Shown here piece after piece: positions 17,040-33,380 of a DNA stretch of 36,975 nucleotides. Under the pieces are notes generated by a model that ran no database searches, was not told where the DNA came from, and saw only the letters and a list, made by a program, of their open reading frames with translations. Position 1 is the stretch's first letter. Every line of letters begins with the position of its first letter. A program made the position numbers and the translations under genes. This DNA is from Candidatus Woesearchaeota archaeon. Lineage in GTDB: Archaea; Nanobdellota; Nanobdellia; Woesearchaeales; UBA12501. The stretch is taken from the NCBI GenBank assembly GCA_014729495.1, contig WJJV01000094.1, positions 1 through 36,975 on the forward strand. The letters run 5' to 3'.

Positions 17040-17400
17040 TCTGCAACAACTATAATGGGCTCATACACTGTCAAGAAGAAGGGTTTATTATTATGCAGGC
17101 AGCAACAGAAAATCTAAGATTTTCTTAGTTACAAAAGCTTCGCATTTGTAACAACAACAATGGACTCATACACGGTCAAAAAGGAAATTTTCTATCTTTA
17201 CGGCAGCAGCAACAGTGGACAGATTGATAAATTAATGTCGGCAACAACAATAATGGATTCATACACCGTTAAAAATTTGCTTTGCAAATTTTTACCTTAT
17301 TCGTAAATGCTAAAAATTTACTATGTAAATTTTTACCATCTACACTCAGTATTCATCCCTTGTTGTTGCCTCAAAAAAGTTATGTTGCTGCCTCAACTAT
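17040..17400 (+). repeat. Composite hairpin-repeat element, copy B: modules and scaffold
   Basis: CAACAACAATGGACTCATACACGGTCAAA (17152-17180), GGCAACAACAATAATGGATTCATACACCGTTAAAA (17240-), TCTACACTCAGTATTC, TTGTTGTTGCC; same order as copies A and C. Confidence 0.9.
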
Positions 17401-17423: not shown

Positions 17424-17800
17424 TAGCGCCACCTCGCTGATGTCACTAGAGCAACATCTTATCAGCGAGGCTAGGAATATGTTGCAAGAGAATAAACCAA
17501 AAGGAATAGCCACCTCTCCGATGTCAGGGTAGCAGCATCTGATCGGAGAGGCAAGGAGTTTAAATGTTTTGAAGAATTCATATAATGCCATAGCCACCTC
17601 GCCAACATAGCATTAGCAGCATCTTATTGGCGAGGCTAGGAGAAGAGTGCAATATAATCCTCTTAAAGCCATCCACCTTTCCGTGGTCTGGTTTATGGCG
17701 CTTATAAGAGAGGCTAGGAATAAATTACAATATAATCCCAAAAATCTATCGCCATCTCTCAGACATAGGACTATCAGCATCCTTTTTCGAGGCAAGAATG
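17424..17800 (+). repeat. Tandem array of about five hairpin units, about 80 bp period (last two degenerate)
   Basis: Stems: CCTCGCTGAT/ATCAGCGAGG (17432/17461), CCTCTCCGAT/ATCGGAGAGG (17513/17542), CCTCGCCAA/TTGGCGAGG (17597/17627), plus decayed units near 17676 and 17754. Confidence 0.88.
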
Positions 17801-19023: not shown

Positions 19024-19665
19024 TCAATGCATCAGTCCTTTCAGATACTGCTGCCTTATTGTCTTGAAGCCTTTTTCTGTCACGCAGACAAGGGTCTTTC
19101 TTCCCTGTTTCTGCCTCTCCATAAGGCCGATTTCCTCAAGCTTTGATATGCATCTTGAGACAACCCCTGACTTGCCTGCCTGATTGACAGGATACAGCTC
19201 TTCTACAAGCATCTTCATGGGTATGAAATCGCTTCCGCTCTCCTTTGACATCTTGTATGTCAGGATAAGTATCTTCTTCTCATGATTGGTAAGCTCGTAT
19301 TTTATGCTTATTGACCTCTGGCCTGAAGACTTTGGATTCATAAGCTCCACAAGCTGGTCAAATATCTCTATGAATTCCTTGCCCCTGTTGGTTATGCTCA
19401 TTATATAGTCATTGTCAACCGAGTCCAGGGCTATAAGATTATAGGATGACAGCTTTTCAGCTGCTTCTGTGCCTCTGCTTTTGAGCCTGGCTTTTGAGCC
19501 TACATCAGAAAGCTTTGTTGTATAGGACTTCTTTTCCAGCACCTCGTTGTCATAGAGCGCTTTCAGTAGATTGATAGCATCCTTGTCTGTAAGCAGGGGG
19601 TAGAGTTTCATATATGATTCTTGATTTATGAGCTTGTTTATAATTTTTGTTGTACTTCTTTGCAA
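19024..19665 (-). CDS. Winged-helix transcription regulator-like protein divergent from cdc6
   Basis: 213 aa; LTNHEKKILILTYKMSKESGSDFIPMKMLVEELYPVNQAGKSGVVSRCISKLEEIGLMERQKQGRKTLVCVTEKG resembles wHTH; alternative start MKLYPLLTDKD at 19611. Confidence 0.7.
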   Translation of the reverse strand: MQRSTTKIINKLINQESYMKLYPLLTDKDAINLLKALYDNEVLEKKSYTTKLSDVGSKARLKSRGTEAAEKLSSYNLIALDSVDNDYIMSITNRGKEFIEIFDQLVELMNPKSSGQRSISIKYELTNHEKKILILTYKMSKESGSDFIPMKMLVEELYPVNQAGKSGVVSRCISKLEEIGLMERQKQGRKTLVCVTEKGFKTIRQQYLKGLMH

Positions 19666-19730
19666 CTATTCCACCAACCAGTATACTTTTCCCCATATTG
19701 GAATACAAGTTAGTATCGGAAGCATCGGAA

Positions 19731-21008
19731 ATGAGGGAAACAAAAACCGAAAAGTATATAAAGGACTTGCGCAATACTATGGTTAAGGTGTTTGGAAGAA
19801 ACAAACGGTTCTTCCAGGGGTGGTTTGAGAAAATGGAACCAATGACTTTCGCTTCAGTGCTGAAAAATCCAATATACAACAAAAGGGATGTGCTCTATTC
19901 TTTGGAGCCGCCCACTGGATTTCTGCACAGGACGGGTCAGAAGAACGAGCTCATAATGGAGCTGGCGCCTATACTCATGGGCTCTGCTGTGAGCTGCGTT
20001 TTTGTTTACGGAGTGCCTGGAACCGGCAAGACAGGCCTCATATTTGATCTGATGAAAGAGCTTGAGCAGGAAGCAGACAACAAGGAAGTGGAGCTGAAAA
20101 CAGCTTACATAAACTGCTCAGAGAACAGGACAGAGACAGTGATCCTGATAGGCCTGCTGAACCAGCTGAATCCTGAAAGGGAGTACCCAAGGATGGGATG
20201 GACAAGGGCAAAGGCCCTCAGCGAGTTCAACAATCTGCTTGAGGATGAGTCAAAGCAGGTGCTGGTGATACTTGATGAAGTAGACTATGTGCTCAAGGAA
20301 AGCGGTGATGACATATTATACAGGCTCAGCAGGATAAACAACAGCGTGAAATCAAAGGTTTCCACTCTTGTAATATCAAATGATGTTAGGGTGGGAGATT
20401 ACATAAAACCTCGGACCCAGTCGGCATTCGGCAGGGTAAAAGTAATCTTCTCTCCTTACACATCAGATGAGCTCTTTGACATACTCAAGGAAAGGGCAAA
20501 GGTGGCATTCAAGCCAGGAGTGATAACAGATGCAGTGATAAAGAAGGTTGCAGAGATAGAGGCCCAGAGGAACGGAGATGCGAGAAAGGCGCTTGAGCTC
20601 ATGGATTCATGCGCAAAGATAGCGATAGCAAAGAAGAGAAACAAGATAACACTTGACCTTGTTGAAGAGGCTGACAAGAACCTTGAGAGGGACCAGATGC
20701 TGGCAATAGTGCAGACACTCACGCAGCATCAGAAACTTATCTACCTCTCAATCCTCAAGAATGAGGAGAAAGTGATGGCTGGATCAGATATCTACAGGAT
20801 ATACCTTGAGGAGTGCGAGTCACTCAACATAAAGCCATTGTCAGAGAGAAGGGTCAGGTCATTCCTCATAGAGCTGACAGAGATGGGGCTCATAGAATCA
20901 GAGGTAGGATGGCTTGCTTCAGCAAAGAAGAAGACAAGGAAGATATCACTCAATCTTGACAAGGCAGTAAAGAACAAGGCAATAAAACTCATAAGGGATT
21001 CAATCTGA
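19731..21008 (+). CDS. cdc6: Orc1/Cdc6-family AAA+ replication initiator
   Basis: FVYGVPGTGKTGLIFDLM (Walker A), LVILDEVDYVL (Walker B), GDARKALELMDSCAKIA (sensor 2), C-terminal wHTH. Start placed at MRETKTEKYI. Confidence 0.92.
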   Translation: MRETKTEKYIKDLRNTMVKVFGRNKRFFQGWFEKMEPMTFASVLKNPIYNKRDVLYSLEPPTGFLHRTGQKNELIMELAPILMGSAVSCVFVYGVPGTGKTGLIFDLMKELEQEADNKEVELKTAYINCSENRTETVILIGLLNQLNPEREYPRMGWTRAKALSEFNNLLEDESKQVLVILDEVDYVLKESGDDILYRLSRINNSVKSKVSTLVISNDVRVGDYIKPRTQSAFGRVKVIFSPYTSDELFDILKERAKVAFKPGVITDAVIKKVAEIEAQRNGDARKALELMDSCAKIAIAKKRNKITLDLVEEADKNLERDQMLAIVQTLTQHQKLIYLSILKNEEKVMAGSDIYRIYLEECESLNIKPLSERRVRSFLIELTEMGLIESEVGWLASAKKKTRKISLNLDKAVKNKAIKLIRDSI

Positions 21009-26249: not shown

Positions 26250-26610
26250 CTGCAGCAACAGAAAATCATAGATTGTTCATGAATTCTGAACATAGTGAAG
26301 AATTCTGAACTAGAGAAATCAGATTGATTTCTCGTTTTCTTAGTTGCAAAAGCTCCGCATTTGCAACAACAATATTGCCGGCAGACGGCCAAAAAGGAGA
26401 TTCTATAAATTATAAGGCAGCAACAACAATGGACTCATACACGGTCAAATTGCTTCGCAATTTGCCCTACTCGTAAAGGGAAAACCAGAACTGCGTAACT
26501 GGTTTTCCCTCTACACTCAGTATTCGTCCTTGTTGCTGCCTAACAGAGCCCAAAGTTGAGCGCCACCTCTCCGACATAGAGATAACAGCACCGTATCGGA
26601 GAGGCCAGGA
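26250..26610 (+). repeat. Composite hairpin-repeat element, copy C: modules, scaffold and first array unit
   Basis: 26416-26610 matches the reverse complement of 8-203 with about five visible differences by eye. Confidence 0.92.
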
Positions 26611-26695
26611 AGAAAAAGCGCAAAGTAATTCTACTTAAAGCATTAGCCACCTCGCCAATATCACAAGAGCAACGTCTTTATGGCAATGCCAGGAT
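26561..26695 (+). repeat. Two units of the hairpin array (second degenerate)
   Basis: CCTCTCCGA/TCGGAGAGG (26566/26596); GCCACCTCGCCAAT...AACGTCTTTATGGCAATGCCAGGA (26650-). Confidence 0.85.
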
Positions 26696-33257: not shown

Positions 33258-33264
33258 TAAACAT

Positions 33265-33380
33265 AGCCCTGCTCGGACTCGAACCGAGGTCTTCGGACGT
33301 TTTCGATGAAATCGAAAATTGTTCAAAATCTTGATGTCCATCACCAAAATCCGAAATGCTTGCCACTACACCACAGGGCT
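33265..33380 (-). tRNA. tRNA-Gln (anticodon TTG) with canonical-position intron
   Basis: Minus strand AGCCCTG TG GTGT AGTGGCAA GCAT T TCGGA TTTTGG [intron ~45 nt] G TCCGA AGAC CTCGG TTCGAGT CCGAG CAGGGCT; all arms pair and TTG falls at positions 34-36. Confidence 0.92.

Follow-up and report, generated by a model that had tools for sequence, protein, structure and literature searches.

A dispersed non-coding repeat with a conserved fold and exchangeable hairpins in DPANN archaeal genomes

Two perfect hairpins in a 36,975-base stretch of an archaeal genome (the window; contig C74 of the host genome, G000, which comprises 134 contigs and 1.35 Mb) belong to an element of ~125 nt that folds as a three-way junction and has ~55 copies, full or partial, in this DPANN genome. 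The analyses established the copy number, the fold and its strand, the block replacement of hairpins between orthologues, their reassortment among copies and the presence or absence of the element at one orthologous site. We interpret the feature, copy B, as one unit of a dispersed, non-coding, structure-selected DPANN repeat with the behavior of a non-autonomous mobile element (REP/REPIN- or MITE-like), and give this interpretation an even chance of being correct. No transposase partner has been shown for the element, and an RNA function is not excluded. The element was previously uncatalogued and unannotated, and is widespread in a large archaeal order.

Results

Copies in the window

Three cores, copies A, B and C, were identified in the window together with adjoining repeats, as follows.

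17240-17370, minus as the inferred folded strand (plus in the orientation of the earlier note): core of copy B, a type 1 element (covariance model R1 match, E 6.5e-29; nhmmer)
17270-17294, minus: slot 1 of copy B, the P3 hairpin (direct sequence, 11 perfect pairs)
17311-17335, minus: slot 2 of copy B, the P4 distal hairpin (direct sequence)
78-203, folded strand plus (earlier orientation minus): core of copy A (R1 match, E 4.6e-36)
26416-26540, folded strand minus (earlier orientation plus): core of copy C (R1 match, E 5.1e-37)
17042-17239, approximate, minus: tandem partial copies adjoining copy B (direct repeats; nhmmer partial match 17148-17184)
204-421, approximate, plus: tandem partial copies adjoining copy A (sequence; inverted-repeat pairs I1-I3, I5, I6)
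26250-26415, approximate, minus: tandem partial copies adjoining copy C (sequence; BLAST pieces 86-201 of query)
17428-17800, plus: 81-84-bp repeat array adjoining copy B (repeat family D1/D2, sequence)
26562-26694, plus: two units of the 84-bp hairpin repeat adjoining copy C (repeat family D1)
6-56, minus: one unit of the 81-84-bp hairpin repeat adjoining copy A (inverted pair I4, 82%)

The hairpins of copy B had been placed correctly to the base in the earlier note: slot 1 is TAAAAATTTGC-TTT-GCAAATTTTTA and slot 2 is TAAAAATTTAC-TAT-GTAAATTTTTA, each with 11 perfect pairs. Copies A and C likewise carry the hairpins quoted for them (direct sequence). No other perfect 11-bp hairpin with a loop of 3-8 occurs in the window, and the two of copy B are far beyond chance expectation, 12 order-1 Markov controls having 0 or 1.

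Slots 1 and 2 of copy B are near-identical to one another (22 of 25 bases) and the same near-identical pair occurs on G000:C21, hinting at slot-to-slot copying behind the matching slots in both. The tandem partial copies beside copies A, B and C are arrays of one outer arm (~32 nt) whose units are parted by AT-rich spacers of ~25 nt; such arrays are found in the host genome and are apparently absent beside the copies of its sister species (G001). The 81-84-bp repeats have their own hairpin, CCTCNCC...GGNGAGG, with covarying arms, and in G001 single units of this repeat occupy the place where an inverted element of the second type (see below) would stand.

Copy number and distribution

BLAST of the host genome with the element returned ~90 pieces. 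The covariance model R1, built from 42 cores, had 56 matches in the host genome, 20 in Nanoarchaeota archaeon Modern_marine.mb.317 (G001, of the same genus), four in G003 and one in G002, and no match in six other genomes of the family; copies per genome within one family thus ranged from 0 to ~55. A 16-mer scan of genome contigs gave mostly chance matches, plus two contigs of the G001 MAG. Twenty pattern matches in viral contigs were considered to be chance because none matched the model. Many copies are located at contig ends, and copies coincide with many contig breaks, so the copies probably break the assembly. The genomes were mostly fragmented assemblies, genes were called mechanically as open reading frames, and the E-values of the covariance models are rough.

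A second type of the element, ~107 nt in length, was defined from weaker matches and from a module often positioned head to head with the core. Its model, R2, had matches in 57 of the 193 genomes sampled from the order, in a search that scored only 20 candidates per genome, and in 43 of 279 genomes of a phylum-wide draw, every one from the same order. Fuller counts for eight genomes were 1 to 45 copies. The second type has the same topology, 'GAGUA-GG.C[hairpin]G.CC-GU' with tandem G.A, but its P4 is different and its outer stem varies freely. Its 31 pairs were standard in 97.5% of cells. In both types the outer stem was paired in ~97% of cells with no conservation of sequence, so that terminal inverted repeats are present. 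In G119 and G003 most copies were head-to-head doublets, which either had 18-21 nt of outer arm in common or were 9-14 nt apart.

Several variants were observed. Two giant forms of 194-195 nt (L121, G000:C62:6110-6303 plus; L122, G001:C215:4675-4869 minus) have a core1 shell and several extra domains with common conserved blocks, e.g., GATGGCGGGATCAAGGAACAAGACCCTTG. In addition, two second-type elements (L062 and L059, on G001:C40 and G001:C173) contain the same multi-hairpin module of ~150 nt in the P4 loop, which is a nested insertion.

Fold, covariation and strand

The alignment of 42 copies contained 45 pairs in four helices, with 97.8% of pair cells standard and both-side changes at 25 of the 45 pairs. 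The covariation score was 0.358, versus 0.138 for shuffled and no more than 0.105 for slid controls; as related copies are not independent, these shuffle statistics are not probabilities. Thirty-one pairs were kept in 104 further copies. The description of slots that vary fully and yet remain paired was upheld by many more copies than the three on which it had been made.

In the orientation of the earlier note, the fixed mismatches of the fold are U.C, C.U and A.C. On the opposite strand there is instead a tandem G.A/A.G in 42/42 copies, a G.U in 42/42 copies, and G.A or A.G at the base of P3, and junction columns 23-27/71-75 also pair, including A.A or A.G beside G.A. Cells with G.U outnumbered those with A.C (101 versus 21) in 104 copies from seven genomes. 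Based on the mismatches becoming G.A and G.U, and on the excess of G.U over A.C, the functional fold is most likely on this opposite strand, where it is better formed. Plain double-stranded palindromes had been suggested by the G.U count on the strand first read; scoring of the opposite strand overturned this candidate.

The fold comprises the outer stem, a stem with the tandem G.A motif, P4 (slot 2) and P3 (slot 1), with only GU as free junction bases. In core1, 27 of 29 distinct P3 loops were triloops, 23 of the 29 being C(purine-N-A)G, and purine-N-A triloops made up 51 of 88 distinct P3 loops in core2. Extraordinarily stable DNA mini-hairpins result when GNA or GNNA loops have a G-C closing pair (PMC4686876), and the purine-N-A triloops of the element resemble these. 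The hp2 (slot 2) tetraloops were GNRA in 8 of 10 cases, and RNA fold z-scores of the element were as low as -9.7. Its covarying helices, tandem G.A and GNRA loops are features of structured RNAs in Rfam, but it matched none of the 4,227 families on either strand at gathering or permissive thresholds.

Exchange of hairpins between copies

The earlier note had called the slot contents of different copies unrelated. Their variation is indeed full, but they are not wholly unrelated, since separate families can be told apart among them, along with graded compensatory variants. Its proposals of whole-hairpin replacement and of strong structural selection both gained support. Among 30 host-genome copies there were 28 copy pairs with exactly the same slot 1, and slot 2 differed in 25 of them. 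Sister-species orthologues showed block-wise change of P4/P3 between near-constant flanks: at two loci of G119 and G061 with ~90% identical flanks the outer stems were kept and P4/P3 were replaced or extended, still paired, and three loci common to G000 and G001 (the IF-2 locus, which is copy B, C127/C273 and C57/C173) differ in slot contents. The slots are swapped as blocks. Structural selection is supported by the graded compensatory variants, the near-absence of unpaired slots and the fixed non-canonical pairs. Outer arms were strongly correlated with each other (Mantel r 0.71) and weakly with slot 2 (0.14), and the outer stem of relatives, like the slots, varies while remaining paired.

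The gradual unpaired divergence that would have refuted the earlier proposals was not seen. There were a few chimeric or mispaired slots: slot 2 of G001:C273 combines a 5' arm matching one type with a 3' arm matching another, G000:C40 shows a similar mixture, and G000:C126 has a mispaired slot. The idea that free mobile palindromes enter the slots was not supported, as all 10 genomic occurrences of the copy B hairpin type were inside slots of this element; the reversed control pattern had 0 matches in the genome. We infer that hairpins move between paralogous copies through recombination or gene conversion. If this exchange is anchored on the conserved flanks, as we suppose, both arms would travel together, and misfolded recombinants would presumably be lost.

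Genomic context and mobility

The copies were strictly intergenic, with no fixed orientation relative to genes. A simple pooled count gave a weak excess co-oriented with neighboring genes (116 versus 75), a slight bias that leans toward RNA. The copies also lacked the constant placement and orientation upstream of one class of genes expected of a riboswitch or leader RNA, and a regulatory leader, terminator or divergent-promoter element was rejected because the gene context was inconsistent.

The element at G119:C6:68845 is absent at the orthologous site of G061, where the flanks join cleanly. This was the only clean empty site, and deletion is possible. The copy is flanked by an 11-12-bp AT-rich repeat, the one candidate for a target-site duplication; such duplication was not general, with repeats scoring at least 8 at 3 of 39 loci versus 1.4 expected. 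In the sister species, the spot matching G119:C6:664208 holds another subtype, and the counterpart of G119:C6:440485 holds 2.3 kb of different DNA. Together, these three loci indicated gain, loss or replacement of the element at a scale of ~10% divergence.

Y1 HUH transposases were more common in genomes with the element (33/57 versus 36/136; odds ratio 3.8, p 6e-5), in a comparison uncorrected for phylogeny or genome size. None was found in the host genus or in several high-copy genomes (G012, G173 and G061), no element was present within the 4 kb read around the Y1 gene of G119, and across the listed positions no Y1 gene adjoined the element (not every genome was read). A Y1 transposase was rejected as the partner based on its absence from the host genus and on an order-wide association without adjacency at the listed positions, as was a tyrosine recombinase, G000 having a single one and the search of G001 yielding none.

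A separate locus of G119 (L239, C6 near 65,950-66,110) contains a pair of palindromic units whose hairpins are of the kind GGCTAAAGCC..GAGGTATT and look like the hairpin upstream of the Y1 gene of that genome. This spot is the site where G061 carries the element.

Discussion

The closest known system is that of the REP/REPIN/BIME repeats with their RAYT (TnpA-REP) HUH transposases (PMC3733652, PMC6006769, PMC3116915). Like these, the element is high-copy, intergenic and palindromic, frequently forms head-to-head dimers, and has stems and loops that differ among members. For the REP-type tag, GTAG or GTGG, the evidence is mixed, with GTAG located at the P3 5' foot in 50/104 core2 and 6/42 core1 copies. 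However, REPs are single hairpins of 20-40 bp, whereas the element is a three-way junction of 105-130 nt with a variable outer stem, and no transposase gene flanked by the element was found. Its size, its topology and the lack of a flanking transposase argue against REP membership; by analogy, the element may work like a REP without being classed as one. It also resembles MITEs in being short, non-coding and intergenic, with terminal inverted repeats and presence/absence between relatives. In contrast to MITEs, its terminal repeats pair without conserved sequence between copies or genomes, and there is no consistent target-site duplication.

In this reading, one strand of each unit folds to give a long outer stem, the tandem G.A stem and the three-way junction with P4 and P3, and what is retained is the shape: stems, purine-purine mismatches, junction GU and GNA/GNNA-type loops, in units often arranged head to head as inverted doublets. 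We infer that the fold is recognized in single-stranded DNA exposed in replication, and that the element is copied or moved by an enzyme supplied in trans, which does this recognition. Whether such repeats form an order-wide archaeal class, recognized purely by the folded single strand, with every stem and hairpin an exchangeable cassette, evolution by the swapping of entire hairpins among copies and no dedicated neighboring transposase, is a broader proposal that we make only tentatively.

The strongest rival, which we consider possible though somewhat doubtful, is a multicopy structured RNA family, acting in cis in read-through transcripts or as small RNAs, in which covariation reflects RNA-level selection. 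The covariation of the helices, the tandem G.A motifs, the GNRA tetraloops, the excess of G.U over A.C, the low z-scores and the slight co-orientation with genes are all consistent with it, and RNA folding would explain the strand asymmetry and the GNRA loops equally well. Against it, place relative to genes is not fixed, triloops outnumber tetraloops, G.U is rare for RNA (101 of about 2,960 standard pairs), overlapping head-to-head doublets have no space for their own promoters, and copy number is erratic within one family. Based on the purine-N-A triloops, the rarity of G.U, the doublets without promoter space and the erratic copy number, we modestly favor single-stranded DNA over RNA.

Palindromes free of selection, perfected from quasi-palindromes by template switching during replication and spread by recombination only, would account for both arms changing together, the few wobble intermediates and the perfect, AT-rich palindromes of copy B. 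This origin is improbable, as template switching would erase the fixed G.A, G.U and opposite-strand pyrimidine mismatches, all constant in 42/42 copies, and would favor neither one strand nor one loop type. An identity as integron attC sites, belonging to gene cassettes of archaea, can be largely discounted: a conserved structure of free sequence folded from a single strand is the attC principle, and archaeal integrons include Nanoarchaeota (PMC9668308), but the element branches at a three-way junction where attC forms one imperfect hairpin, its copies are scattered among ordinary genes in both orientations without cassette arrays, and the one tyrosine recombinase of G000, whose identity as IntI is itself untested, had no equivalent found in G001.

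The literature on Nanoarchaeota repeats contained nothing relevant that we could find, and in some genomes of this barely studied order the element occupies dozens of intergenic spaces. It offers a natural experiment in shape-only selection, with hundreds of solutions to one fold and hairpins exchanged as modules, and allows a direct test of what recognizes a folded strand independently of its sequence. With the alignments and covariance models, the family can be annotated in other genomes.

Two other features of the window were noted. An Orc1/Cdc6-like gene (19647-21008, plus) is located ~2.3 kb from copy B, and its region is a possible replication origin. A tRNA of 117 nt (33264-33380, minus) was matched by Rfam and missed by ARAGORN, and therefore probably contains an intron.
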